DNA from: a virus
Length of the DNA stretch: 24,005 bases
Reading direction: 5' to 3' (one strand)
Virus record (IMG/VR): IMGVR_UViG_3300037497_000015
Coordinates: 1-24,005 of that record
Part shown: in pieces, positions 8-21,945 of the stretch
Numbering within the stretch: the first letter of the stretch is position 1
How the letters are laid out: each line of letters begins with the position of its first letter
The notes under the pieces: generated by a model
The model's input: only the letters and a program-made list of their open reading frames with translations
Databases searched by the model: none
What the model was told of the DNA's origin: nothing
Translations under genes and position numbers: made by a program

Positions 8-3000
8 CTAATCCCACTGCCCGAGGACCGCAGCCGTCGTCGACCCGGTCCGCCACACCTCGAAGAAGCTGCCGTCCTCCACGACCGCAGCCGCCGCCGT
101 GAGGAGCGTAATCGCGGGCTGGATCGTGCCGGCGACGCTGATCTCGAACGTGCCGAACATGTTGACGTAGAGCCCCGTGCCCGTCTGCACCGACACCATC
201 GCCGCGCCGGTCTGCGCGGTCTGGTGCGCCGTACCGCTGTTTGAAGCGCCCGTCGCAGGCGTCGAGGTGTCGAGCCCCACCACGTGGTAGAGCGGCTGCG
301 CGATGGTGGCCCCGCCAGTCCCGAGGAGATCGAAGGCCGCGTTGCCGCTCGTGGCCGACATGGCCGTGACGAGGATCAGAGCTCGGAATTGGTAGAGCCC
401 GGTCTCGAGCGTGATGCGGCCGTTCGCCGAGCAGTTGAAGAGCTTCTGCTCCGTCGTCGCGCTCGTAAGCGTGTAGTCCGCGTCGAGGCGGCAGATGTGG
501 ATCGCGGGCGAGTAGCCGCGGTTCCCTGCGTCGGTTGTCAGGTAGTGGACGTTCGCGTCCGCCTCCCACGCGCCGTCCTCGGCGGTCGTGAGCACCGTTC
601 CGCTCGCGAACGTCGGCCAGGTGCCCGCAGAAGCGGTCCCCGCAGCGATGGTCGGAGCTGTCAGGGTCCAGCTCGACACGGCCACGCTGTCGGAAATCGT
701 CGTCGCGTTCCCACCAGCCGCGGCCGTCACCTCTCCAGTGAGGGCGGCGCGCGAGAGATCGAGCGCAGCGAGGGTCAACGAGTCATCGACGACGATCTCC
801 TGCATGACGCCAGCCCCCCCGGTCGTGCGTCCGATCATGCGCGCCGTCGCCATCGACGTGGTTACGGAGTCGCCGGAGATCACGATGGGCGCGACGGCTC
901 CGAGGTTCGTGTCGGCGCTGATGTCGAGCGCGGCGACCTGTGTGGTCCCGACCGACCCGCTCGTGAGGTCTGCGCCGTCCAGTGTGCCGCCCGTAATCTG
1001 GACGATCTCGCTTGCGTCGGCAGCCATCGTGACGTCGGTGCCTGCCGGAGACGCTTCCCACGCGAGCGCCTCGGCGTTATCGAGCCGCACCGCTCCAGAG
1101 TCCGCCGCGTCGCTCGCGTCGATCACCGCGGGCTTCGCGAGATTGATCGTCGTCGTGCTCGCGTTGCCGACCGTCACCGCGCCCTCGGCTACCGAGCGAA
1201 TCGCATCGACGAACGCGCCGTTCACCTGCTGAGTCAGCGCAACGTCCATGTCCTCTGCGCCAGTGCCCGTCGCCGTGAGGTTGCCCTCGAACCGCGCGTT
1301 GTCCTCGTCGTCGGTGCCGTCGAGGTCGCGCAAGGCGACCAGCGGCAGCGAGATTGGCGTCGTCGTCACGCTCGTGAACGTCGCGTTGCCGCCCGTGTCG
1401 AGCGCGGTGCCGCTGATCCCGAACTCGGTCATCAACTGCGCCCACGTCTTGCCCGCGGCGAAGAAGCCGACGAGCGAGTCGCCGGTCAGCGCTGCACCCG
1501 TGCTGTCTGCGCTCGCGATGTAGTCGGTTGTGTCCACACCGTCCTGCGACGGGAAGCAGTGAAGCTGCTCGTTGGTGTTAGCGGTCGAACCCTCACTCAA
1601 GAAGCCACCACCAGGGCAGTCGTCTGAAAACGCTGCGCCACTCACCGCGATAGCCGGGTTACCCGCGAGTGTTTGCGCGTAAGCGAGCTCCAGCGTCGCC
1701 GTGTCGGGTGAAGCGCCGGTCGCCAGCGCCACCGACACGCCTAGGCCGTTCAGGAAGTCCACGCCAGAACCGTCTGCGACCGCGGCTCCGTTCACGAGGA
1801 TCGAGTCTCCGCCTCCCGCCCCTACTCCATCGCCCTGAAGAGCCCAAGTGTTCGCCGCCTCACACAGATAGTGGCGCTGACCCGTGGTCGCGTCCGTGTC
1901 CATATACTGTTCGCCAACAACGCAGGTGCCTGGCAACGTGGTGCTGTTAGGGATTTCGAGCGTGCCGCCACCGAAGTCGAACTTCGCCGTCACCGTCTTG
2001 GTGCCGGTGTTGAAGCTCTGCACGGCTTCGAGGGCTACGTAAGTGAACGTGCCACCCGTGGCGATGCGATTCCAAGTCGAGTCTGAGCCGGTCGGCTCGT
2101 TGTGGCAATCGAGCAACTCGTTGCCGTCCGCCGTCGCGCCTTCGCTGATCCAGCAATTCGAGTTGTCGTCTAGATCGCGCTGGTACGCGCCGAGGGTTGC
2201 CCCCACCAATGACTTCGCAGGGTTGAAATTGATGTTGTCTGTGACGCCGGTGCTCCGCGCGATCAGCCAGTTCGTGTCAGTGGGAAGCTCGTAAAGATAC
2301 GGCGTGCCACCCGGCCACAGGCGGTTCATGTCGATCAGGATTTCGTTCGCGGTGACTTCCTGAACCACCGAGTCCGTTCCACCGTTATCGTTGGCGGTGT
2401 TGATCCTGATCACTCCGGTGCTCTCGTCGGAAGCGTCGTCGTTCAGGTCAAGCGCAACCGCGCCGTCGCCAACTACGGCGAACACGGAACCAGTCCAATA
2501 ACAAAGTGTACGAAACGTCCCGGTAGGTGCTCCCGGGTCACAGTCTCCAGCGGCGTTCCCGTTCGCAACGATCACCACCTCGTCTGCCCAGAAGACTTCA
2601 CCGGGGGAAGTCGTGAGCGACGTAATCATTCGTGGTGTCTTGCGAAGCGCGCTCCGCGTGTAGGCCGCATGACCTGTCGGCGGGGGATGGTTGTACGCCG
2701 AGAAGTTCTCGGTCAGGTCAACGCGCGTCTTGCTCGCGGCGTTGGCGACGAAGGCCGACATTGTGAACGTCGTGTCGCTCGTGTCGGTGTCGCTGCCGCC
2801 GTTGTTCCCACCGAGGAACACGGTCGCGCTGGCGTTGGTTGCATCGTTTACAGCGTGCGGTCCCAGCACCACACCGTCGCGACCGGGCCAGTTGCCGTCG
2901 CCAGCCTGGATACCGCCCTTGAAGCGAACGCTCGTGTCAACGGTACTGCTCGCTCCGGTGTAGGAGCACGTCGTCGATGCAGCCCACTGGTCGTCCCGCG

Positions 3001-6000
3001 AGCAGACGCGGTTCGACGAGTCCATACCCGCGCCGATCAGGATGCTGTCGCCCTTGGTGACCGAGAACAGGATCGAGTCGCCGTTGTCGAATGATCCGCT
3101 CGGGGTCAGTGCTGCCACGCACGTCGCGGTGTTCGAGTCGGTGACGGTCGCGATCCTGCACCACGAATCGTCAGTGATGTTCCAGAGAATCGCGCCTACC
3201 GTGTCGCCGTCAGTGGAGAAGGTCGTACCCGTTAGGTTGTCGATGACGGTGCTAGAGCCGCCGGTGCCCGCGGTGCCCGCGCCGGTCGTTCCGGCGCCCT
3301 CGGTCCAGACGTGATCGAAGAGGTAAGAAGACCCCACCCCAACCGCAATCTCATTGATGCGGTTGCCCTCGACGGTCATGCCCGAGAACTTGTGAACCCC
3401 GCCAATCCCGCCCGCTGCCTGCGAGCGATCGGCGCAGAAGCCGCTGGCGCAACTCGACCAAGCGTGTTGGACGCCGGAAGTCTTCAGGTCATCGAGCACG
3501 ATGCCGAACTGATTTCCCGCAAGCTCTCCGCCCTCGGTCACTCCGTCCCAGTTCCCGAAGCCGTAGATGCCGACGCCGCCCCAATACATCTCCGTCTCAC
3601 CGTAGTTGTTAATCCAGCCCTGCCACGAGTGGGAGACTCCGAAGTCGTCCATGTCGTGTGGCTGGCTGTAGAAGTACCGGCGAAGCTGGCCGAAGTCGCC
3701 GCGCGTAACCTGCCCGGCCTCGTGCCACCAGACATGGGTCGTTGACTTCGCCCCGGTACGATGGAACTGCGGAAGTGGCATTTCGCCCACGACGATCGGG
3801 TCTATGCCGCCGTCCTGATCGCGGTCGGTGTTCGTGGTTCCGAAGATATACCCACTCATCGAGAGGTTGTTCACCGTGCCGTAGGTGCTGATGTCCGACG
3901 CCGTGTTGTTCACGAAGCCCGTGCGGTCGCTGTTTCCGATTCGGATGAACTCGGACCAAACCGACTGAGCAGAGTTATCAATGAGCGGGTTCAACGCCCA
4001 CTCGATGTTCCCTTGGCCTATGGAGAAGTTCAGATTCGAGGATGTCGCTGCCGTGTCGCTCGGGTAGCCGTCCGCATCCGGCGAAGCTCCCGGCCCGCTG
4101 ATGAAGATGCAGGCGCGCATCGAAGGGGAGCCCGAGAGCAGCTTGTAGTCGGAGATCGGTACGAGTGCGGGTGGTGTTCCGCCGATGTAACCACGGAACG
4201 GGCCATTAGGTACCGCTTGCAGTCCTTGAATCACTCGCTGCGAGCCCTGGCAGCGGTTCGCCACCTTGCTCAGCGTGGTTCCGTTCCACAGCAGGCCGGA
4301 TGTCCAATCGTACCAGCGGTCGTAGCGTTTCCAGGGTTCTGTGTTGACGCCCTCAGGCGTGATGGTCTGAGGGGTTCCGAGGTCGTGGCGATCTACGATC
4401 TTGGGACCGCCCCCCGTAGAAGTCACGTTGATGGCTACGTCGCTCAGGTCGGCACCGTAGTTCCACGCCGCGAGGTTCCCGGCCATGTAGACGGGCGACG
4501 CTCGCGTGGCGTCAGGGTTGTTAAGCTCGATGTCGCACTTTCGCGCGGCATCCGCGCTGTTGCTCGACCAAGTGTTGCCGACCATCGTGAGCGAGGCCCG
4601 CGAGTTGTGTTCGACGCATGTGTGCTCGGTCGTGGCGTTCACTTGCATCTGGAAGCGCACGCGACCCAGGTGATGCGGATACGCGGCACCAGAGCCGCAG
4701 CCCAGGCCGGTGTCTGAATACTTAATCACCGTGCCGTTATCGCCGGTCCACTCCACCGAGGCTTCGTCGAAGCGCGTCACCGTGGCGCAGGAATCAACTT
4801 GGATGCCAACGGAGTTGGCGAGGCTGCCACCCAGGAAGAAGTCGTAGAAGCTGATCCCGCCGCGCTGCACGAGGATGCCAGGGCTGGCGGTCCAGTTGGC
4901 GCATTCGAGTTGGACGATGCGATTCTGGATCGCTTGCGTCTCGCTCTGCCGCAGGCAGTGGCGCGAGTCGCGAATCTGAACCTGCTCGACCACCCAGTGG
5001 TCGTTCTGACCGTTGTTGCCGCCACCGCCCTCGCTGTCGAAGGCGATGCCCCATCCCTGCGTTGCAACCGTCGTATCGAGCACGTCCTCGATCGTGACGC
5101 TCCGGATGATGCCCTTGCCGGTTGTTAGACCGAGGCCGTTGTCGGCGGTGAGACGAATGCCGAACCCGGCCTCGCCGTTCCCATCCAGCGCGAAGTCGAG
5201 TAGTTGGTGGTTGAAGCCAACCACCTGCATCATCGTGCCGCCGTTCGCTCCGCCCCAGGTGAGCGTGGTCCCGGCATAATTGATCGCGCTGGGCTCGTAG
5301 CCAGAGCCGTGCCCCATGAGGATCACGCCCTGCTGGTAGTCGGTGGCGATGTTCACCACGTCGCCGATCTTGATCGTCGTGGTGATCGTCTTCTCGCCCT
5401 TCGGCAACCAGACGACGCAGCCGAGGTTTGCGTTGCCGCTCCCCTTGCCGCACGCCGCGATAGCCTCGTTGATCCCCGCAGTCGTCGATCCGGCCACGTA
5501 AGAGTCGGCGTGAAAGACCCGAGATGCGTCAACGCAGTTCTCACTGTTGTCGCGGTCGCCGGAACCACCCGAGTCGAGATCGTGGAAGAAGCCGCTCGCG
5601 CACGTCGCCGAACTGATCGGCTGGATGTCGGGGCCGCTCACCGCCTTGAGCAGCGTCGCCGCGTTGGTGCCAGTGCCGCTTACGTCGAGGCTCGACCCGG
5701 TGCCAACAACCATCGCGGCGGTGGTGTTGGTGCCGCCCGTGATGGCGGAGAACGCGGAAGAGCCGCCGCCCGCCGGGTTCTCGGCGATGTAGGCGCTTTG
5801 CTGGCAGGTGCAGACGTGATTATTCGAGCCGCCACCCACGGTGCAACTCGAGGCGCTCGTCGCATCCGTGACCTTGAAGCTGCGCCCCTCGGCCGCCGTG
5901 TTGCACGTCGGCAGCGTCGCGATCGTGCGCTGCGAAGGCGACGCGCTGCGGATCACGCCGTCCGACTTCGGCACCGGGTCGGCAGTTGCCGAGAGAGCCG

Positions 6001-6037
6001 CGAACACGACGATCAGCGCGGCGAGAACTTTGCGCAT
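8..6037 (-). CDS. Giant Sec-targeted beta-helix tailspike/fibre-like protein
   Basis: A 2009-aa protein starting at ATG with AAGGGG 4 nt upstream. Residues 1-19 (MRKVLAALIVVFAALSATA) form a Sec signal peptide with an Ala-Thr-Ala site. Cys45, 65, 76 and 78 form a first cysteine module. Residues about 170-440 resemble the pectate-lyase superfamily beta-helix of tailspikes (INEAIAACG, VVWLPKGEKTITTTIKIG, GVILMGHGSG). Residues about 440-1100 are further Gly/Asn/Thr-rich beta material. Repeated cysteine-pair modules lie at about 1295-1311, 1372-1392 and 1474-1494. A shaft-like region of short Thr/Ala/Gly repeats runs to about 1840. The last 160 residues look like a C1q/TNF-like trimeric head (LETGLYQFRALILV, FGTFEISVAGTIQP). 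Receptor binding or glycan cleavage is likely; no catalytic residues can be assigned. GC is lower than in the rest of the module. Confidence 0.85.
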   Translation of the reverse strand: MRKVLAALIVVFAALSATADPVPKSDGVIRSASPSQRTIATLPTCNTAAEGRSFKVTDATSASSCTVGGGSNNHVCTCQQSAYIAENPAGGGSSAFSAITGGTNTTAAMVVGTGSSLDVSGTGTNAATLLKAVSGPDIQPISSATCASGFFHDLDSGGSGDRDNSENCVDASRVFHADSYVAGSTTAGINEAIAACGKGSGNANLGCVVWLPKGEKTITTTIKIGDVVNIATDYQQGVILMGHGSGYEPSAINYAGTTLTWGGANGGTMMQVVGFNHQLLDFALDGNGEAGFGIRLTADNGLGLTTGKGIIRSVTIEDVLDTTVATQGWGIAFDSEGGGGNNGQNDHWVVEQVQIRDSRHCLRQSETQAIQNRIVQLECANWTASPGILVQRGGISFYDFFLGGSLANSVGIQVDSCATVTRFDEASVEWTGDNGTVIKYSDTGLGCGSGAAYPHHLGRVRFQMQVNATTEHTCVEHNSRASLTMVGNTWSSNSADAARKCDIELNNPDATRASPVYMAGNLAAWNYGADLSDVAINVTSTGGGPKIVDRHDLGTPQTITPEGVNTEPWKRYDRWYDWTSGLLWNGTTLSKVANRCQGSQRVIQGLQAVPNGPFRGYIGGTPPALVPISDYKLLSGSPSMRACIFISGPGASPDADGYPSDTAATSSNLNFSIGQGNIEWALNPLIDNSAQSVWSEFIRIGNSDRTGFVNNTASDISTYGTVNNLSMSGYIFGTTNTDRDQDGGIDPIVVGEMPLPQFHRTGAKSTTHVWWHEAGQVTRGDFGQLRRYFYSQPHDMDDFGVSHSWQGWINNYGETEMYWGGVGIYGFGNWDGVTEGGELAGNQFGIVLDDLKTSGVQHAWSSCASGFCADRSQAAGGIGGVHKFSGMTVEGNRINEIAVGVGSSYLFDHVWTEGAGTTGAGTAGTGGSSTVIDNLTGTTFSTDGDTVGAILWNITDDSWCRIATVTDSNTATCVAALTPSGSFDNGDSILFSVTKGDSILIGAGMDSSNRVCSRDDQWAASTTCSYTGASSTVDTSVRFKGGIQAGDGNWPGRDGVVLGPHAVNDATNASATVFLGGNNGGSDTDTSDTTFTMSAFVANAASKTRVDLTENFSAYNHPPPTGHAAYTRSALRKTPRMITSLTTSPGEVFWADEVVIVANGNAAGDCDPGAPTGTFRTLCYWTGSVFAVVGDGAVALDLNDDASDESTGVIRINTANDNGGTDSVVQEVTANEILIDMNRLWPGGTPYLYELPTDTNWLIARSTGVTDNINFNPAKSLVGATLGAYQRDLDDNSNCWISEGATADGNELLDCHNEPTGSDSTWNRIATGGTFTYVALEAVQSFNTGTKTVTAKFDFGGGTLEIPNSTTLPGTCVVGEQYMDTDATTGQRHYLCEAANTWALQGDGVGAGGGDSILVNGAAVADGSGVDFLNGLGVSVALATGASPDTATLELAYAQTLAGNPAIAVSGAAFSDDCPGGGFLSEGSTANTNEQLHCFPSQDGVDTTDYIASADSTGAALTGDSLVGFFAAGKTWAQLMTEFGISGTALDTGGNATFTSVTTTPISLPLVALRDLDGTDDEDNARFEGNLTATGTGAEDMDVALTQQVNGAFVDAIRSVAEGAVTVGNASTTTINLAKPAVIDASDAADSGAVRLDNAEALAWEASPAGTDVTMAADASEIVQITGGTLDGADLTSGSVGTTQVAALDISADTNLGAVAPIVISGDSVTTSMATARMIGRTTGGAGVMQEIVVDDSLTLAALDLSRAALTGEVTAAAGGNATTISDSVAVSSWTLTAPTIAAGTASAGTWPTFASGTVLTTAEDGAWEADANVHYLTTDAGNRGYSPAIHICRLDADYTLTSATTEQKLFNCSANGRITLETGLYQFRALILVTAMSATSGNAAFDLLGTGGATIAQPLYHVVGLDTSTPATGASNSGTAHQTAQTGAAMVSVQTGTGLYVNMFGTFEISVAGTIQPAITLLTAAAAVVEDGSFFEVWRTGSTTAAVLGQWD

Positions 6038-6047
6038 AGCACCCCTT

Positions 6048-6076
6048 GGCCCCGACGTGCCGAAGCACGCGGGGCC
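6048..6076 (-). promoter_or_regulatory. UUCG-capped hairpin in the leader of the large fibre-like gene
   Basis: Coding strand arms GGCCCCGCGTGC and GCACGTCGGGGCC close on the loop TTCG with a C-G closing pair, giving a 12-bp stem with one bulged T. cUUCGg is an extra-stable tetraloop. The stem ends 1-2 nt before AAGGGG, the ribosome site for ATG 6037. No T run follows, so it is more likely a translation or mRNA-stability element than a terminator. Confidence 0.65.
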
Positions 6077-6095
6077 GAGTCGAGTAATCGTTCGG

Positions 6096-6326
6096 CTACG
6101 GATTCGGCACCGTGAGCTGAGGCGTGATGCTCAGCACTCGGCCCGAGGCGTCGTAGCGGTAGACGAGGTACGTGGTCGAGTCGGGCGCCGCGAAGTTCAG
6201 CGTCGCCGAAACAGCGACGGTGATGTACGACGGCCCGCCCTCGTTGATCACCCGGCGCGTGATGCCGCGCTCGGGGATCGGGAGGGTGACGTAGACGTAG
6301 GTCCAGCGTTCGGTAAGTGAGGTCAC
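6096..6326 (-). CDS. Small paralogue of the preceding gene's C-terminal domain
   Basis: A 76-aa protein starting at GTG in a GTGA overlap with the preceding gene; no good ribosome site is visible, so it probably depends on coupling. It opens TSLTERWTYVYVTLPIPERG, then RRVINEGGPSYITVAV, PDSTTYLVYRYDASGR and TPQLTVPNP. It aligns over its whole length from residue 8 with the last 69 residues of the preceding protein (33 identities of 69 by eye, no gaps). Both genes even end with the same bases, ACGGTGCCGAA. It has no signal peptide and no cysteine, so it would stay in the cytoplasm unless it is a read-through fragment or a subunit carried along. Function unknown. Confidence 0.72.
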   Translation of the reverse strand: MTSLTERWTYVYVTLPIPERGITRRVINEGGPSYITVAVSATLNFAAPDSTTYLVYRYDASGRVLSITPQLTVPNP

Positions 6327-6916
6327 GGGTTCGGCACCGTCGAGCTCGGCAGCGTGTAGTAGTCGCGCCCGGTCGAGTCGTAATACCTGATGAGGTAGTA
6401 CGTCGTGTCTGGCGTCGCGAAGTCGCCGTCGCACGCCACGTCGACGCGCGTGTACGACGGGAAGCCCTCGTTGATGAGCGACTGCGTTAGGCCGCGCGCG
6501 CCGATCGGGCTGTTCGCGTAGATGAACGTCGGCTTCTCGCAGCGGTCGGGCACGTCGCCCGTCGAGCCCGCGACGCCGGCGACGGTCGCCGTAGACCAGA
6601 CCTCGTTCGTCTGGTCGTCGCGGAACTTCACGACGTAGTGCTTCTCGGTCGCGTCGCTCGCCGCCGGGTACGCGATGCCCGATGCCGCGGCGAGGTTGAA
6701 GTCGTAGCAGTCCGACGTCCCCGACACGCGCGTGAAGCTCCCGTTCGGAACGGTCGCGAGGAGCGCCGCGGCTGCAGCGGCGTTGTAGACGTCGGCGACA
6801 ATGCTCGATGGCGTGCCCGTCAGGCCGCAGGCCGTAAGCCACTGCGCGACCGTCCGCTCGGCGAGCGCGGGCGACGCGAGCGCGAGCGCGAGGGCGAACG
6901 CGAGTAAGCGCGTCAC
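6323..6916 (-). CDS. Sec-exported protein of unknown function, fibre region
   Basis: A 197-aa protein starting at GTG in a GTGA overlap with the fibre gene, with GGAGGA about 7 nt upstream. An ATG 15 bases further up has no ribosome site. Residues 1-19 (MTRLLAFALALALASPALA) form a textbook Sec signal peptide: Arg, a Leu/Ala core and an Ala-Leu-Ala cleavage site before Glu20. Four cysteines in the mature part could form two disulfides. Residues about 129-197 form a domain containing SLINEGFPSY and a C-terminal TVPNP. That domain is repeated as the next gene with about 48 percent identity by hand alignment. No family is recognised. Location suggests a fibre accessory, a periplasmic fibre chaperone or a host-surface protein; none is proven. 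Confidence 0.78.
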   Translation of the reverse strand: MTRLLAFALALALASPALAERTVAQWLTACGLTGTPSSIVADVYNAAAAAALLATVPNGSFTRVSGTSDCYDFNLAAASGIAYPAASDATEKHYVVKFRDDQTNEVWSTATVAGVAGSTGDVPDRCEKPTFIYANSPIGARGLTQSLINEGFPSYTRVDVACDGDFATPDTTYYLIRYYDSTGRDYYTLPSSTVPNP

Positions 6917-7884
6917 AGCGAGTTCCTCCATCCGCCGACGATGACCTCGTGCTTGATCACGCCAGGGCTGCTTCCGAGAAACTGGATCACGGCCCAGACG
7001 ATCGTCGGCGTCGAATCGCACGGGATGTCGAACGTGTTGGAGTCGGTCAGAGTGTCCGAGGTCACGTCGATCGCGCCGAGGCGTGTGGCCGACTTGTTCG
7101 TTGCGACCGTGGCGCCCGAGAGCGCCTCGTGCGCGTAGTGATGCTGCGCGTCGTCGTGGCGCGTGTGCGCCGTGATCCGCACCGCGCGCGCGGTCGCGGG
7201 CACGCCGGTCAGCGTGAGCGACGTGTAGGTGGCCGGCATCGTTAGGCCGGGCGAGAACTCGAGCGTGTCGGGCGCCCGCAGAACGGTCCAGCCGTCGGGC
7301 ATCTCGTCGAAGTCGGCCCACACCGCGGAGCCCGCCTTCGTCCGCATGGCGAAGATGCACCGCTCGCTCGTGCGCGTCGGGTGATAGCCGACCTTGCCCG
7401 TGGTCGATGGCGCCGTCGCACTGATCTTCTTGGCGAGCGCGTCGGCGGTGACGAGCGCGTAGAGGTAGTAGACGGTGTTCGCCGCGACGCTGCCCGTGTC
7501 CATGTCCGCGGTGTTGTCCCAAGTGAGGCTCGCCGCTTCGCGCAGTACGCCGTCGATCTCGATCGCGATCTTGTCGCTGCTCTCCGGCGCGAGCGTGATG
7601 ACGGCATTCGACGTGCGCGAGCAGGTGCCCGTGCGCGCGCCGCGCAGCATCCCGCCCGCGAGCCGCTTGATCGCATTGGTGAGCTGCGTGTAGTCGCCGC
7701 CCGCCACCGAGAGCGTGAGCCCCGCGGCGGTAACGACGTTCGCCAATTCCTCCTGCTGAACGTCGAACGTGACCGCGCCGGGTCGCGTCGCGGTGACGCC
7801 GGCCGCCTTGTCGCCGTCGCGGAAGCCGTCCTTGCCGGTGCCGAACTTATCGACGTGGCGGTTCGCTTCGGTGATTCGATGCAC
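6913..7884 (-). CDS. Short tail fibre protein, Mu-type N-terminus
   Basis: A 323-aa protein starting at GTG, with AAGGGGA about 6 nt upstream. The first 90 residues (HRITEANRHVDKFGTGKDGF, ATRPGAVTFDVQQEELANVV, YTQLTNAIKRLAGG) match the baseplate-attachment end of Mu S-type and other fibres. The middle has VYYLYALVTADALAKK and GKVGYHPTRTSERC, common in fibre shafts. The C-terminal third is beta-rich with Thr and His (ITAHTRHDDAQHHYAHEALSG) and could form a tip domain. It has no signal peptide, in contrast to the next exported proteins. It follows gp48 as in Mu, but it is short for a complete fibre. It may act as the adaptor to which the large downstream protein binds. Confidence 0.78.
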   Translation of the reverse strand: MHRITEANRHVDKFGTGKDGFRDGDKAAGVTATRPGAVTFDVQQEELANVVTAAGLTLSVAGGDYTQLTNAIKRLAGGMLRGARTGTCSRTSNAVITLAPESSDKIAIEIDGVLREAASLTWDNTADMDTGSVAANTVYYLYALVTADALAKKISATAPSTTGKVGYHPTRTSERCIFAMRTKAGSAVWADFDEMPDGWTVLRAPDTLEFSPGLTMPATYTSLTLTGVPATARAVRITAHTRHDDAQHHYAHEALSGATVATNKSATRLGAIDVTSDTLTDSNTFDIPCDSTPTIVWAVIQFLGSSPGVIKHEVIVGGWRNSL

Positions 7885-7893
7885 GATATCCCC

Positions 7894-8595
7894 TTACTTT
7901 AGCGGCCCGGTCAAGCGCAGCGAGCCGAGCAGCGAACCGATGCGGATGGGCAGGATGAGCGGGCGCGCCTGCGCCAGAGGCGATGCGACCGTCATCGTGT
8001 TGACGAACGCCACGAGCAGCCGCGTGTGCGCCGGCTTCAATCGGTTGAGCAGGCACTCGAGAACTTGGTCGCCCCACTCCGCGAGCCGTTCGTCGCAGAG
8101 CGAGTCGCAAGTGAAGTAGGTCACGCCGCCGCTGTCCGCGACATTCACGCGCCAGACGAACCACCAGTCGTTGCCCGAGTAGCCGAGCCCGCCCGGCCCC
8201 GGAGCCGACGGCGTGAACTCGTCGATCGACGTAACCGTGAAACCAAGCTGCGCCGCGATGCCGATGTAGAACGCGCGCGAGAGCGAGCCCTGTGACGTGA
8301 GTCTCGCGACGAGTTCGGCACGCCGCGCCTCGAGCGTTGCGCCGAGGCCGTGGCAGTCGTCGGGCAGGCCGGCCATCGCCTCCCAGTCGGCGAGCATCTC
8401 GGTCGTCGTGCGCGGGTCGGCCTCGTCGACGAGATCGTGGCCGCGCTGCTCGAGCCGAACGAACTCCTCGGCGACGCCAAGCAACAGGAGGGAGAGGTGG
8501 CTGTCGAGCGACTCCGGCCAGATGCGGCCCGGCGGCACGAGGCCGCGGAGCGCGCCCGCGTACTGTTCCGCCGTCTGCGGCTGTGCGTGCGGCAC
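7894..8595 (-). CDS. Baseplate / tail protein (Mu gp48-like, DUF2313)
   Basis: A 233-aa protein starting at GTG. It starts QTAEQYAGALRGLVPPGRIWP, then LLLLGVAEEFVRLEQRGHDLVDEADPRTT split by a few residues, and TTEMLADWEAMAGLPDDC, which is the DUF2313 (YmfQ / Mu gp48) signature. The later FYIGIAAQLGFTVTSIDEF and NRLKPAHTRLLVAF also fit. The protein links wedges to fibres at the baseplate rim. About 35 residues after the usual end (from NTMTVASPL, rich in Leu, Ile and Pro) form an extension that may bind the fibre. It ends at TAA, 9 nt before the fibre gene. Confidence 0.9.
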   Translation of the reverse strand: MPHAQPQTAEQYAGALRGLVPPGRIWPESLDSHLSLLLLGVAEEFVRLEQRGHDLVDEADPRTTTEMLADWEAMAGLPDDCHGLGATLEARRAELVARLTSQGSLSRAFYIGIAAQLGFTVTSIDEFTPSAPGPGGLGYSGNDWWFVWRVNVADSGGVTYFTCDSLCDERLAEWGDQVLECLLNRLKPAHTRLLVAFVNTMTVASPLAQARPLILPIRIGSLLGSLRLTGPLK

Positions 8596-8604
8596 GGCGG
8601 CGCC

Positions 8605-9666
8605 CTAGACCCAGGTGATCGAGGCGGCGGCGAAGATCGGCATCTGCGCTGCCGTGTGCGTGATGTCGGCCGCCGGCACGGTCACGGCGTTGTCGTTCTC
8701 GCCCGCCGCGCGCGAGACGGCTTCGCGGATCTGAGAGAGCAGCATCGTCGCGCCGGGCTCGGCCGCGCGCCGGTAGAGGTCGGCGAGTTCGGCCTCGATC
8801 GCTGTGCGGATCGTTGCCGTGTCGGGCACCGGGTGGATCGTGAATGCGTCGCTCGCCGCGGTAGGCGCCGAGACGGTGACGGCGGCGGTCACGGGCCGCA
8901 CGGTCTGGATGTAGGTGTTCACCTCGGCGACTTCGGGCGCGGACGGGATGATCGCCGTGCCGAGACCGTCGTCGTCGCGCACGAAGTAGACCTGCACGTT
9001 GCCGACTGTCGGCGAGGTCGCCCAGGCGCGCGTGACGCCAGCGATCGAGAGCGCCCAGGCCACGTAGTCGTGGACCGCGCCGCCCTGAGGTGGCGACTGG
9101 ATGCGCGCGAGCACCTCGGCGCGAAGATCGTCGTCGTCCTGCTCGTCGGCGCCGCTCACGAGCACGGTAGACGTCGCCGTAGCCGGCGAGTCGGCGCCCG
9201 AGATCGGCGAGACGAACGAGAGCGCGGTGCCGGTGGCCGTGTTGCCGTCGGCGCCCGCCACGGACGCCGTGAGCTTGATCGTCGCCGTGCCGCCCGCGAT
9301 CGTGACCTCGGCGTTGACCGAGACCTCTGCCGTGTCGGAGCGCGCGAGCAGCGTCCCGAGCGGGATCACCGTGCCGTTGACGCCCGTCACCGTCGCCTCG
9401 AACTGCGCGGCGATCGCCGCCGAGCGCGTGATGCCGTAGATGCCCGCGTGCCGGTCGAGAAGTTCGTCCTCGGCCGTATCGACGAGCACCTGCCGCGAGA
9501 TCCACGCGAGGAAGCCGTAGAGCGCGTAGAAGCCGGCGGCGAGAACGAACGCGATGACGCCGAGGATCGAGCGGCGCAGGCGCGCGTCGGCGCCGGGGAT
9601 GCGCGTCTCGATGTCGCCCATGATTCGGTCGCGCAGTTCGGTCAGGGTCGGCGTCGCGTAGGCCAC
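8605..9666 (-). CDS. Baseplate J-like wedge protein (Mu gp47-like)
   Basis: A 353-aa protein starting at GTG. It begins PTLTELRDRIMGDIETRIPGAD, then LAWISRQVLVDTAEDELLDRHA and GITRSAAIAAQFEATVTG, the N-terminal pattern of baseplate J-like proteins. The middle has SPPQGGAVHDYVAWALSIAGV and VQVYFVRDDDG, the family's most conserved portion. The C-terminus has TIRTAIEAELADLYRRAAEPG and LLSQIREAVSRAAGE. It corresponds to T4 gp6 and P2 J, which form the ring of wedges around the hub. Length matches Mu gp47. It ends at TAG, 9 nt before gp48. Confidence 0.94.
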   Translation of the reverse strand: MAYATPTLTELRDRIMGDIETRIPGADARLRRSILGVIAFVLAAGFYALYGFLAWISRQVLVDTAEDELLDRHAGIYGITRSAAIAAQFEATVTGVNGTVIPLGTLLARSDTAEVSVNAEVTIAGGTATIKLTASVAGADGNTATGTALSFVSPISGADSPATATSTVLVSGADEQDDDDLRAEVLARIQSPPQGGAVHDYVAWALSIAGVTRAWATSPTVGNVQVYFVRDDDGLGTAIIPSAPEVAEVNTYIQTVRPVTAAVTVSAPTAASDAFTIHPVPDTATIRTAIEAELADLYRRAAEPGATMLLSQIREAVSRAAGENDNAVTVPAADITHTAAQMPIFAAASITWV

Positions 9667-10154: not shown

Positions 10155-10712
10155 TCAGTTCAGCGCAACGACTTCGAGGTCATGCACCTGCATCGTCTCC
10201 GCGGTCGAGCCCGAGCGGAGCGCCTGAACGCTGATGATCTGCGCGGCCGTCAGGTCGCACGCACCCGAGACTACGGGCGCGCTGTCTGGGATCAGGATCG
10301 GCGCGAGCGTGCTCGCGATTGCCCCGACGTGAACGTCTGCCCGTCCGGTCACGAAGAGCGTGCCCGTCGCGCCGATCGTTCGGCAGTGAACGAACGCCTC
10401 GAGCATCCACGAGACGTTCGTCTGCGAGATCGAAAGCGCCTTGGCGAGGCTCACCGCGAGCTGAACGCCGTTCGCATCGGCGCCCGTCCCGTAGTAGATG
10501 CCGAACTGAAGGTTGCCCGGCGTCGCGGCCGTCGTCATGCGGCCGAAGAGCCGGATGCGGAGCTTCTTGCCGGGTCGCGCGAAGTATTGGCCGCCGAGCA
10601 CCGGGAAGTTCGACGCCGGGTAAAGCGCCTTGAAGGTCGCCGCGAGCGTCACCGCTGCGATGTCGGTCGCGATGAACGGCTCGCGCGTGTCGTGGTAGAA
10701 AGCCCCATCCAT
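10155..10712 (-). CDS. Unrecognised 185-aa protein inserted in the baseplate block
   Basis: A 185-aa protein starting at ATG with a strong AAGGAG 7 nt upstream, after an 18-nt gap. The sequence is beta-rich with few charged stretches: GGQYFARPGKKLRIRLFGRMTT, LQFGIYYGTGADANGVQLAV, VSWMLEAFVHCRTIGATGTL, STAETMQVHDLEVVAL. The alternation of strands and Gly/Thr turns suggests a jelly-roll or similar beta sandwich. No signal peptide or membrane segment is present. I do not recognise a named family. It separates gp45 from gp46, which are adjacent in Mu. Its own leader and ATG start differ from its neighbours' GTG starts and suggest higher expression. A virion surface or decoration protein is an inference. 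Confidence 0.8.
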   Translation of the reverse strand: MDGAFYHDTREPFIATDIAAVTLAATFKALYPASNFPVLGGQYFARPGKKLRIRLFGRMTTAATPGNLQFGIYYGTGADANGVQLAVSLAKALSISQTNVSWMLEAFVHCRTIGATGTLFVTGRADVHVGAIASTLAPILIPDSAPVVSGACDLTAAQIISVQALRSGSTAETMQVHDLEVVALN

Positions 10713-18710: not shown

Positions 18711-20717
18711 CTACGCGCCTGCGCCCGTGACGCCGTAGCGGAAGTCGATCGTGCCCGCGCCGAAGTCGTGGGCCACCTTGACCTGCACGCCCTCGACCTC
18801 GAAGCCGGGCCGCACCTCGAAGCGCGGACCGCTGCCACCGATCGTGCCGTACACGTAGTTCGAGCCGACCGCGGGGTCGGCCAGAACGTAGTACCGCACG
18901 CTCGAGAGGTTCGCGTCGAAGATCGGCTCCATCAGACCGGAGAACGCATTCACGTTCGACGCCTGCGCCGCGTAGATCGGCGAGAGGAGCCGGCGGGCCA
19001 GGATGTGCGACGTCGGCGACGTGAGCACGAACCGCCCGGGCACGTTCAGCTTCAGGCCGTTGATCGACGTCTGCGCCGCCATGAGGCCGAACGCCTCCTC
19101 GAGCCGCGTGTTGTCGAGCGCGCCTGCGCTGTTCACGTTCGTGTGCGCCGCGTTGTAGCAGGCGACCGCATCCGACATCGTCTGGCCGAGGCCAGAGCCC
19201 GTCGTGATCACGCGGCTGTAGAACGTCGCGTTCTCGAAGTCCGTGATGCGCCGTGCGACCATGCCGCCGAAGTCCCCGAACGCCGACAGATCGTCGTTGA
19301 CGAGAACCTCCCACAGGATCGCCATGATGCGGCCGTACTTGAGCGCCGTGATCGACTCCGAGCCTTCGCCCATCGAGCCCTGCGTGATCTCGCCGCCTTC
19401 TCCGATGAGGAGCGGCAGCGGGAAGTCGCCGGATCGGATGAACTTGTGCGCCCGGTAGTCCTTGAAGTCGCGCTTCGCCGCGATCATGCGGAACGACGGG
19501 TTCGCCGTCTGGTATCGCTCGAGGAGCGACTTGTTCAGCACGTTCGCGAGGATGTTGGGGAAGTCCGCATTGGACATCGCCAACTTGATCACGTCGTAGG
19601 GCGCGCGGATCGGATCGAGCGCGCGGCCGCGGGTCTGGCCGAGCTTCTCGAGCACGCCGTAGGCGCACTCCGCGAGCGACATTCGCGCGTACTGCTGGGC
19701 CGGTGCCGGGCACGGCGTCTTGAGCGCGCGCGCCGAGAGCGCGTCGCTCATGCGGGCGACCGCCCAGCCGAGACTCTGGTAATCCTCGCCGAACTTGAGG
19801 CCCGAGTCGATGACGCCAGCGTCGGTCGTCTGCACGAGTTTCTTCGCGGCGGCGAGCGCCTCCGTGACCGTGCTGCCGAGCTTCTGGTGGCGACGGACCC
19901 AGAGGTCGTCGAGTTCGTAGTGCGTCGCGATCTCGCGCAGACGCGCCACCCGCTTCGTGTCCGACGCGAGCGCGTCGGCGAGCGCGAGGTCTTCGGCGCG
20001 GTCGTCGGACTGATCCGACGGCGCCGCCTTCTTGAGTTCCCGCGTGTGGAGCTCGGAGTCGAACTCGAGCTTTTCGATTTCGACGATCTCACCGAGTTTG
20101 CCCACGTCCTTCACGTCCGCGAGCAGGCGCACCTTGATCTTGTCCATGTTTCTCTCTCCCTTTGGCGCGAGTGCGCCAGACAACTCGCAGGGGAACTTTT
20201 CCGCCTGCGCCAGAACCTGAGCACCGGAATCCGCGGGAACTGGCACGATGCTCAATTCCATCGGTTCCCAGTCAACGGCGAGCATTCGCTTCTGCGAGTC
20301 GCCCTTCTTCGTGACGTCGCGCGCCGTGTGAATGACCGCGCCCATCGAGAAGTTCCGAAGAATCCCGTCGCGCAGCCGCGCGAGAATGTCGGGCCGATCC
20401 TCGGCGATCTTCACGCGCGCGTGGCCGCCGTCGGCCGCGAGCCACGCCGCCTCGACGACGCCGATCACGGCCTGCGACACCGGCAGATCGTCGCGGTGAT
20501 TATCGACGAGCGGAGCGCCCGCGTTGAAACGGCCCATCCGCACCGAGCCCTTATCGAGCGAGAACGCAAGCTCGTAGGGATCGTCGAAGAACGGGAATCG
20601 CTGAACCGACGCGCCCGAGTAGAAGATCACCTCGACCGTGCGCGCGTCCACGTCGAGCGTCGAGGCCACGACGGGCGCCTCGGAGCGGAGCTTCGGGAGC
20701 ATTAGGTGCTTCGGCAT
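18711..20717 (-). CDS. Prohead protease / major capsid protein fusion
   Basis: A 668-aa protein starting at the ATG of a TAATG overlap with the methyltransferase, with GGAGG just upstream. Residues 1 to about 165 are a prohead protease of the HK97/U35-like serine class: LVDNHRDD gives candidate His74, and ILRNFSMGAVI gives candidate Ser124, followed by WEPMELSIVPVPAD. Residues about 191-668 are the shell subunit, with an N-terminal charged helical stretch that may act as a scaffold, then GDFPLPLLIGEGGEIT, ITALKYGRIM and LVNDDLSAFGDF, motifs of Mu T-like/fusion capsid proteins. Such protease-capsid fusions are known in proteobacterial phages. An ATG at residue 191 has its own ribosome site, so the capsid part may also be made alone. 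The stop is TAG at 18713-18711. Confidence 0.9.
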   Translation of the reverse strand: MPKHLMLPKLRSEAPVVASTLDVDARTVEVIFYSGASVQRFPFFDDPYELAFSLDKGSVRMGRFNAGAPLVDNHRDDLPVSQAVIGVVEAAWLAADGGHARVKIAEDRPDILARLRDGILRNFSMGAVIHTARDVTKKGDSQKRMLAVDWEPMELSIVPVPADSGAQVLAQAEKFPCELSGALAPKGERNMDKIKVRLLADVKDVGKLGEIVEIEKLEFDSELHTRELKKAAPSDQSDDRAEDLALADALASDTKRVARLREIATHYELDDLWVRRHQKLGSTVTEALAAAKKLVQTTDAGVIDSGLKFGEDYQSLGWAVARMSDALSARALKTPCPAPAQQYARMSLAECAYGVLEKLGQTRGRALDPIRAPYDVIKLAMSNADFPNILANVLNKSLLERYQTANPSFRMIAAKRDFKDYRAHKFIRSGDFPLPLLIGEGGEITQGSMGEGSESITALKYGRIMAILWEVLVNDDLSAFGDFGGMVARRITDFENATFYSRVITTGSGLGQTMSDAVACYNAAHTNVNSAGALDNTRLEEAFGLMAAQTSINGLKLNVPGRFVLTSPTSHILARRLLSPIYAAQASNVNAFSGLMEPIFDANLSSVRYYVLADPAVGSNYVYGTIGGSGPRFEVRPGFEVEGVQVKVAHDFGAGTIDFRYGVTGAGA
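20145..20163 (-). promoter_or_regulatory. Internal ribosome-binding site and start codon for the capsid part of the fusion
   Basis: Inside the protease-capsid gene, the coding strand reads AAAGGGAGAG, then 6-8 nt, then ATG (20147-20145), which opens with MDKIKVRLL in the same frame. The purine-rich GGGAGAG is very like the site before the decoration gene (GGGAGA before ATG 18616). It sits exactly at the linker between the two domains. A capsid-only product of about 478 aa is therefore expected in addition to the fusion. Confidence 0.6.
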
Positions 20718-21235
20718 TACGCCTCCGGCTTCTTCCAAGTCGAAACGAGGTCTTGATTCGCTTCCGTGTAGAACATCGAAGCGAACTGCTGGAACTCTTG
20801 GTTCCGCACCGCGATCTCCGGGTGCATGGTCGTGCCCGACTCGATCGTGAAGTCGCAGGTGTAGTCGTCGCAGGCGTGCGGCGCGTGCTTCTCGCGCCAC
20901 CAGCGCGCGAGGTAGAGGAACCAGAACCCCGTAACAGGCGGCCATTGATGCGTGAGGTCGCCGTAGGCTCGGCCGCTCGACCAGTGCGGCGTGATGATCT
21001 CGGCCGTTCCGCCCGGCTTAAGAACGCGGAACAGTTCGTTCGCGAAGTTCATGCGCTCGCGAGCTGTTAGGTGCTCGACGAAGTGAGAGCTATAAACCTC
21101 GTCGACCGAATCGTCGTCCCACTTCCACGGGCCGCGCAGGTCGTGAACGAGGATGTCCGAGCGCCCGTAGTCGCGGACGTCTACGCCGATGAAGCCAGCC
21201 TTCGGGTTCGGGCCGCAGCCCAAGTCGAGCCTCAT
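20717..21235 (-). CDS. SAM-dependent methyltransferase (class I, type 11-like)
   Basis: A 172-aa protein starting at the ATG of a TGATG overlap with the glycosyltransferase. An upstream extension of the same frame exists but reads as nonsense, so this start is preferred. Motif I is at the very N-terminus (LDLGCGPNPKAGFIGVDV, residues 3-20), where Gly6, Gly8 and Asp19 form the SAM pocket. SSHFVEHL (49-56) and FRVLKPGGTAEIITP (69-83) match motifs II-III of class I methyltransferases. The C-terminal third is rich in Trp, Phe, Tyr and His and probably forms the substrate lid. The substrate is unknown. Tight coupling to the glycosyltransferase suggests one pathway, for example methylating a transferred sugar. 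It lacks the catalytic motifs of DNA methylases (no N/D-P-P-Y/W or Pro-Cys motif). Confidence 0.82.
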   Translation of the reverse strand: MRLDLGCGPNPKAGFIGVDVRDYGRSDILVHDLRGPWKWDDDSVDEVYSSHFVEHLTARERMNFANELFRVLKPGGTAEIITPHWSSGRAYGDLTHQWPPVTGFWFLYLARWWREKHAPHACDDYTCDFTIESGTTMHPEIAVRNQEFQQFASMFYTEANQDLVSTWKKPEA

Positions 21236-21945
21236 CACCACACCATCCCGCTCGCGTCCATGTGGCCCACCTTGACCGCGCAATCGACGGCGCACCGGTA
21301 TCCGAGTTGCCGAGCGTTGTGCCAGAACGACATGTCCTGCGTCATCTGCGGCTGCTGCGTCGTCGCGAACAGGGGACGCGGTAGGCGAGGGTCGCGGAAC
21401 ATCGGGAGCCGCCAGAGCGCGAATCCCATGCCGACACAGCAGCACTCGACGAGCTCGTTGTTCACCGGAGGCTGCGGACGGAAGTTAGGGATTGGGTCTT
21501 TCGGGTCGCCCCAGATCTGCGGGTAACCGCCTTCGCCCTTCTGGAAGTAGAGGCCCGAGATGCACGCGAGCTCGGGGTGAGCCTCCATGCGCTCTAACAA
21601 CTTCAGCACGCCGTTCGGACGCGGCAGATTGTCGTGCTCGACCGTCAGCATGAACTCCCAGTCCGAGAGCGCCGGTTCCGCGAGGATGCCTTCGACCGCG
21701 TTCGAGTACGCCTCGCCGACCTCCATGCCCATCGCGAGCACGCGCATCACCGGATTGTTAGGCGGGAAGCCGAGGTTCCAGATCGAGAGCGCGACCTTGG
21801 CCGGGATCGCCGTGCCGGTCGGGATCACGACGGCGATGCGTTGCTTCTTCCACGAGCCGCCCTCGAGAACCCGAGATCGCCCCTGCTCGAACTCGCCGTT
21901 GTGAAATCCGGCGAAGTCCTGCACCACGAGCTCGCTCTTACTCAC
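21235..21945 (-). CDS. GT-A-type (family 2-like) glycosyltransferase
   Basis: A 236-aa protein starting at GTG inside a GTGA overlap with the portal, with a strong AGGAGG about 6 nt upstream. After about 35 residues comes a beta strand, QRIAVVIPTGTAIP, typical of the nucleotide-sugar domain of family 2 glycosyltransferases. EHDN at residues 103-106 fits the metal-binding DxD position, TQD at 202-204 the catalytic-base region, and VGHMD with His228 a C-terminal metal ligand. Three adjacent cysteines (168-170) precede a GMGFALWR segment. Donor and acceptor cannot be read from sequence. It forms a coupled pair with the methyltransferase (TGATG) between portal and protease, where structural genes normally follow directly. 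It may therefore be a cargo gene that modifies virion or host glycan. The fold call is good; the role is inference. Confidence 0.72.
   Translation of the reverse strand: MSKSELVVQDFAGFHNGEFEQGRSRVLEGGSWKKQRIAVVIPTGTAIPAKVALSIWNLGFPPNNPVMRVLAMGMEVGEAYSNAVEGILAEPALSDWEFMLTVEHDNLPRPNGVLKLLERMEAHPELACISGLYFQKGEGGYPQIWGDPKDPIPNFRPQPPVNNELVECCCVGMGFALWRLPMFRDPRLPRPLFATTQQPQMTQDMSFWHNARQLGYRCAVDCAVKVGHMDASGMVW

Follow-up and report, generated by a model that had tools for sequence, protein, structure and literature searches.

In the standard view, the fibres of tailed phages fold and are assembled in the cytoplasm, a reducing compartment. Some lysogenic conversion genes that lie close to tail fibres, such as lom of phage lambda, are known to encode signal peptides. 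A survey of phage DGR target proteins, tail fibres included, recorded no signal peptides (PMC6199706), and in one depolymerase study the missing signal peptide was taken as support for a role in the tail (PMC13097943). Phages do use Sec signals in the lytic phase, as seen with the Sec-exported endolysins (PMC6116005). Our literature searches returned no report of a tailed-phage fibre that is exported before assembly, a result that is not proof of absence.

The DNA analysed here (the window) is a whole IMG/VR virus record of 24,005 bases. Read from the right, its minus strand encodes a lambda-family portal, a methyltransferase with an adjoining unassigned ORF, a capsid protein and a cement protein, followed by sheath, tube, tape measure, DNA-circularisation protein, gpP, gp45, gp46, gp47 and gp48. 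From the portal through the sheath and tube to gp45-gp48, this gene order is Mu-like. The nearest cultured relatives are Bordetella phages (47-52% in gp47 and sheath). Downstream of gp48 lie, in order, a conventional fibre gene, a small gene with an export signal, a partial duplicate of the latter and the gene for a very large protein, just past which the record ends. A preliminary description had placed an ORF for a 2009-residue protein at 8-6037, where Mu-like phages encode fibres. Both the location, after gp45-gp48 and a tail fibre, and the single uninterrupted frame of 2009 codons are borne out, with the amendment that the gene runs on the minus strand from 6037 to 8. The small gene at 6916-6323, upstream of the large one, was absent from that description. 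The features of this region are as follows.

8-6037, minus strand: single ORF for the 2009-aa spike-like protein with a predicted export signal; 32 Cys, which are paired (p = 5e-5); no family match
5981-6037, minus strand: predicted Sec signal peptide of the large protein, residues 1-19, MRKVLAALIVVFAALSATA
5762-5980, minus strand: conserved N-terminal "adapter" of the mature large protein, residues 20-92 (~75 aa)
6042-6047, minus strand: Shine-Dalgarno sequence AAGGGG of the large gene
6048-6076, minus strand: GC-rich hairpin with a UUCG loop, directly 5' of the Shine-Dalgarno sequence (z = -2.18)
6096-6326, minus strand: 76-aa partial duplicate of the C-terminus of the small protein, identified by alignment, with neither signal peptide nor Cys
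6323-6916, minus strand: second protein with a predicted export signal, 197 aa, 4 Cys
6860-6916, minus strand: predicted signal peptide of the small protein, VTRLLAFALALALASPALA, followed by ERT
6913-7884, minus strand: conventional tail fibre without a signal peptide (PHROG tail-fibre N-terminus, E = 1.7e-13)
7894-8595, minus strand: Mu gp48-like baseplate protein (PF10076, E = 1.4e-30)
8605-9666, minus strand: Mu gp47/baseplate J protein (PF04865, E = 6.8e-57)

The match of the conventional fibre to PHROG tail-fibre families covers its first 77 residues. Its stop codon and the start codon of the small gene overlap as GTGA (6913-6916), and the stop of the small gene overlaps the start of the duplicate in the same way. 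From these overlaps, the fibre gene, the small gene and the duplicate are very probably translated together with the late tail operon. A scan of 5800-8700 limited to the sigma-70 consensus detected no promoter-like or terminator-like site.

In the N-terminus of the large protein, MRKVLAALIVVFAALSATA followed by DPVPKSDG, a charged n-region precedes a strongly hydrophobic core, 13-16 residues long, and an A-T-A motif. This N-terminus is by a wide margin the most hydrophobic part of the protein, and no long transmembrane helix follows it. For a membrane helix this hydrophobic run would be short, and it does not resemble a glycine/alanine-rich signal-anchor-release sequence. Signal peptides were scored with a simple heuristic written for this analysis (pass score 5). 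Among the 118 six-frame ORFs of the window, each read from its first start, the large protein alone passed, and the chance pass rate of this heuristic was 0.16% for random N-termini of the phage's own composition. The canonical signal peptide with an A-x-A site proposed for the first 19 residues thus has the sequence features of a type I Sec substrate. The AAGGGG cited in support of the start is present at 6047-6042, 4 nt upstream of the ATG. In the related contig described below, inspection of the 28-nt gap by eye showed no equivalent of the adjoining hairpin.

That contig, L002 (IMGVR_UViG_3300037422_000213), is Mu-like and related to the window phage (71% identity in gp47 and 80% in gpP). 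It has the same layout: a fibre without a signal peptide (61% identical to that of the window), a small protein with an export signal and then a 1454-aa protein with an export signal. The small protein (L002:8806-9399) is 68% identical to its window counterpart, with the signal MRSILLAATILALSASAFA followed by ERT, and retains all four Cys. The signal peptides of both the small and the large protein are retained in L002 although their sequences have diverged. As the large L002 protein aligns from Met-1 of the window protein and keeps a signal peptide, a misplaced start codon is ruled out, as the preliminary description had maintained.

The first 96 residues of the 1454-aa protein, comprising signal and adapter, are 54% identical to those of the window protein. 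Beyond the adapter the two proteins differ, save for one weak stretch at about residues 1190-1360. Receptor-binding proteins are usually built in this way, with a conserved N-terminus and an exchanged distal part, and so is the large protein. The C-terminal domain of the L002 protein also occurs in a signal-less tail-region protein, gp74 of EBPR siphovirus 2. Two further genes with signal-like N-termini follow the large gene in L002, giving four in succession, the signal of the fourth being weak (heuristic score 3.51). The gene after these encodes a short, possibly holin-type protein whose N-terminus is hydrophobic. Possible lipoboxes in the large protein (LASC) and the third protein (LSAC) of L002 suggest that some of these proteins could be lipoproteins.

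A search with the fourth L002 protein led to a 39.6-kb contig, L080 (IMGVR_UViG_3300038379_000636). This is a T7-like podophage, with a PF03906 tail fibre, a PF12236 connector and a PF19821 capsid; gpP was not found in it. Its fibre lacks a signal peptide and is followed by a group of genes of which five of six have signal-like N-termini, and then by a possible holin gene and a DUF5675 gene. The L080 signals are, in order, MRRAFLALALCFASLAASA followed by AQW, MRTLRAVLALCFVWFAALPSVAG followed by TWS, that of a lipoprotein-like short protein, VKPILTLLVLVLLARAASA followed by QSP, and MRVAATLILLLLATLALA followed by QVA. The QVA protein is 68% identical to the fourth L002 protein and has all 20 Cys in common with it; the signal regions of the two align poorly. 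The TWS protein shares one domain with the large protein of the window:

3296-3730, minus strand: domain of the large protein (residues 770-914) shared with the L080 TWS protein, 32% identical over 145 aa (E = 1e-15)

Residues C863 and C868 are conserved in this domain, and the N-terminus of the L080 protein differs from that of the window protein. Two domain families are therefore common to L080 and the Mu-like group. In L002 and L080 the signal-bearing genes occupy the slot between a fibre without a signal peptide and lysis-type genes. This shared slot and the shared domains point to a cassette of putatively exported proteins, found in the same place in two phage types and exchanging domains. 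The pattern is drawn from three contigs, all of them metagenomic.

Elsewhere the cassette was not encountered. About 70 additional loci that carry related gp47 or fibre genes were read with a crude gene finder, and many of them end early; none had a downstream signal-peptide gene above about 330 aa, and none of that size was found with the gpP relatives L082-L089. No signal peptide occurs in the fibre region of Bordetella phage PBb001, the nearest cultured relative. The large protein had no relative among viral contigs when its own peptides were used as queries, nor in 50,697 phage records; no relative of its C-terminal 180 aa was found, and the adapter alone gave one chance-level match. The small protein had no match in phage records and only that of L002 among viral contigs. 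Among 398 genomes searched from the phylum of G003, the one match was weak and lay in a proline-rich protein.

In the signal-bearing genes cysteine makes up 1.6% in the window and 2.2% in L002; the figure for comparison is 0.7% in both cases (the other 18 ORFs of the window, p = 4e-4; L002, p = 2e-6). Because some ordinary fibres without a signal peptide reach 2%, abundance was dropped as sole evidence and the pairing and even number of Cys were used instead. All six large signal-bearing proteins have an even Cys count and close pairs (p from 5e-5 to 0.035); among nine fibre controls one reached p < 0.05 for pairing and four had odd counts. Cysteines were also gained or lost two at a time. C65 and C76 of the large protein are both missing from L002, the signal-less duplicate lacks both C126 and C162 of the small protein, and C1374 and C1416 occur in the L002 large-protein domain but not in its signal-less counterpart, gp74. 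Disulfide bonds would be expected to leave such a pattern, which does not depend on the signal-peptide call. A bona fide export signal on a fibre-like phage protein is well supported, being conserved in a relative, repeated in adjacent genes and again in an unrelated phage, and accompanied by matching cysteine pairing.

The β-helix, shaft and trimeric head attributed to the large protein in the preliminary description were not confirmed. Searches of Pfam, PHROGs and NCBIfam families and of PDB sequences gave no match, to tailspikes and tail fibres or to anything else. For lack of relatives the AlphaFold models of residues 20-760, with a mean pLDDT of 31.6, and of the small mature protein are unusable. 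Family searches revealed no murein hydrolase domain of the kind found in signal-peptide or SAR endolysins, and no outer-membrane anchoring domain was seen in the large protein.

The reading we prefer, whose chances we put at about even, is that the large protein belongs to a cassette of late-made, Sec-exported, disulfide-bonded, glycan-directed phage proteins released by lysis. The cassette proteins would be synthesised late, along with the tail proteins, then leave the cytoplasm through the host Sec machinery and be cut by signal peptidase. Folding, with disulfide bonds, would follow in the periplasm, and lysis of the cell by the phage would free them. They may be modular, fibre-derived proteins that bind or cleave glycans outside the cell, possibly opening the capsule or biofilm around the burst or stopping progeny from sticking to debris. 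The adapter would link the variable part with a phage partner that is itself conserved; the best candidate for this partner is the co-conserved small protein, another perhaps the virion.

The glycan reading draws on fibre-like modularity and on the fourth cassette protein, which resembles BT3328-type polysaccharide lyases (E = 2e-9 for L080 and 6e-9 for L002) and has weak pectate-lyase-like Pfam matches. The match to NCBIfam NF058554 is partial, at 34.7-36.3 bits against a cut-off of 1100. Glycan activity is thus suggested for the fourth protein family only. That family is absent from the window, whose sequence stops shortly beyond the large gene, and profile comparison found no match between it and the large protein.

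The chief alternative is that the large protein is a receptor-binding fibre with a periplasmic detour, exported, disulfide-bonded and then mounted through its adapter on finished virions during or after lysis. Its conserved adapter and replaced distal part are laid out as in the usual receptor-binding protein. The distal "FDHVWTEG" domain is common to the T7-like phage and the adapter is not, as expected if adapters are tail-specific, and the recurrence of the L002 C-terminal domain in the tail region of EBPR siphovirus 2 points the same way. However, a conventional signal-less fibre gene already stands just upstream of the cassette in the window (7884-6913), L002 and L080, the fourth protein is common almost whole to two tail types without an adapter, and no published precedent was found. 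We regard such a fibre as rather doubtful. The cassette proteins may dock onto virions. Slightly more doubtful still is a two-compartment route by which some tailed phages would make receptor-binding or depolymerase spikes: the particles would be put together in the cytoplasm, the exported, disulfide-bonded spikes would mature in the periplasm, and lysis would bring the two together, with the cassette traded between myophages and podophages.

It is improbable that the N-terminus serves as a hydrophobic anchor inside the virion, any disulfides forming after lysis as in phage Milano. Disulfide-rich virion proteins do exist (PMC10811340), and signal-less fibres can have many Cys. Yet signal-like N-termini are seen, in two phage types, on four or more protein families that are unrelated to one another. 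The unrelated sequences of these N-termini repeat the same n-, h- and c-region pattern, mostly with small residues at -3 and -1, which makes a non-functional signal less likely. The shortness of the hydrophobic run also tells against an anchor, as do the signal-less fibre of the same operon and the PBb001 fibre region.

Of the two outcomes that the preliminary description had offered for the signal, passage through the periplasm is the better supported and display by the lysogen is weakened. A moron-type conversion gene whose product sits on the surface or in the periplasm of the infected cell or lysogen, acting in adhesion or superinfection exclusion, would agree with the lom precedent and with the possible lipoboxes of the two L002 proteins. 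We consider it still more improbable than a virion anchor: morons are transcribed independently (PMC6469090), whereas here the first cassette genes are coupled to the fibre gene by GTGA overlaps and no promoter-like site was detected by the sigma-70 scan, no outer-membrane anchor was seen, and the adapter/variable layout with fibre-type domains better suits a receptor binder.

A fibre-like cassette with export signals and paired Cys, occupying one and the same slot in two phage types that are unrelated, would mean either secreted, spike-like effectors of the lysis stage or a part of the virion that matures in the periplasm. Among described systems, the BT3328-type hyaluronan lyase (NF058554) is a distant match to the fourth cassette protein of L002 and L080 and not to the window protein. 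Agrobacterium phage Milano likewise has disulfide-rich tail proteins; the available text (PMC10811340) places intersubunit bonds in sheath and baseplate and describes no export signal. WceF of Pantoea stewartii (PMC7949094) has a phage-tailspike-like fold, leaves the cytoplasm by means of a signal peptide and acts on exopolysaccharide. It is, however, encoded in a bacterial EPS cluster and uses the Tat pathway, whereas the window protein is encoded by a late gene of a phage, carries a Sec-type signal and many paired Cys, and has a putative tailspike fold. Lys44 of phage fOg44 and other signal-peptide endolysins (PMC6116005, PMC8878798) are Sec-exported in the lytic phase with a cleavable signal and act outside the cytoplasm; they are small murein hydrolases, whereas the window protein is huge and spike-like and matches no lysin family. 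Tailspikes and tail fibres of the T7 gp17, P22 tailspike and Mu S type can also be compared. Like the window protein, they are large and modular, with a conserved N-terminus, a replaced distal part and a fibre-type composition, and are encoded after the baseplate genes; unlike it, they fold in the cytoplasm without a signal peptide.

The gene for the 2009-aa protein is preceded by a GC-rich hairpin of 29 nt with a UUCG loop (window 6048-6076, minus strand), which directly abuts the Shine-Dalgarno sequence on its 5' side and might have a role in translation regulation or processing. No counterpart of this hairpin was apparent in the related Mu-like contig L002. Window 6096-6326 (minus strand) encodes a partial duplicate of the small exported protein's C-terminal end, and this duplicate has neither the signal nor the cysteines. 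Parts of it resemble the L002 counterpart of the small protein more than they do the adjoining window copy.

In the T7-like podophage, two spike-like genes with signal peptides flank a 133-aa gene without one (L080:3657-4058), the product of which had no Pfam match. An ORF of ~2700 aa (L091:3411-11516, minus strand, in the podophage sequence) lies upstream of the T7-like tail fibre, and its product may be an internal virion protein of very large size.

The portal and capsid genes of the window are separated by an insertion (20717-21945, minus strand) encoding a methyltransferase (PF08241) and an adjoining protein, which had no family match and by eye looks glycosyltransferase-like. An ORF of 185 aa (window 10155-10712, minus strand), also without a family match, is flanked by gp45 and gp46 and, relative to the Mu gene order, is an addition in this interval.
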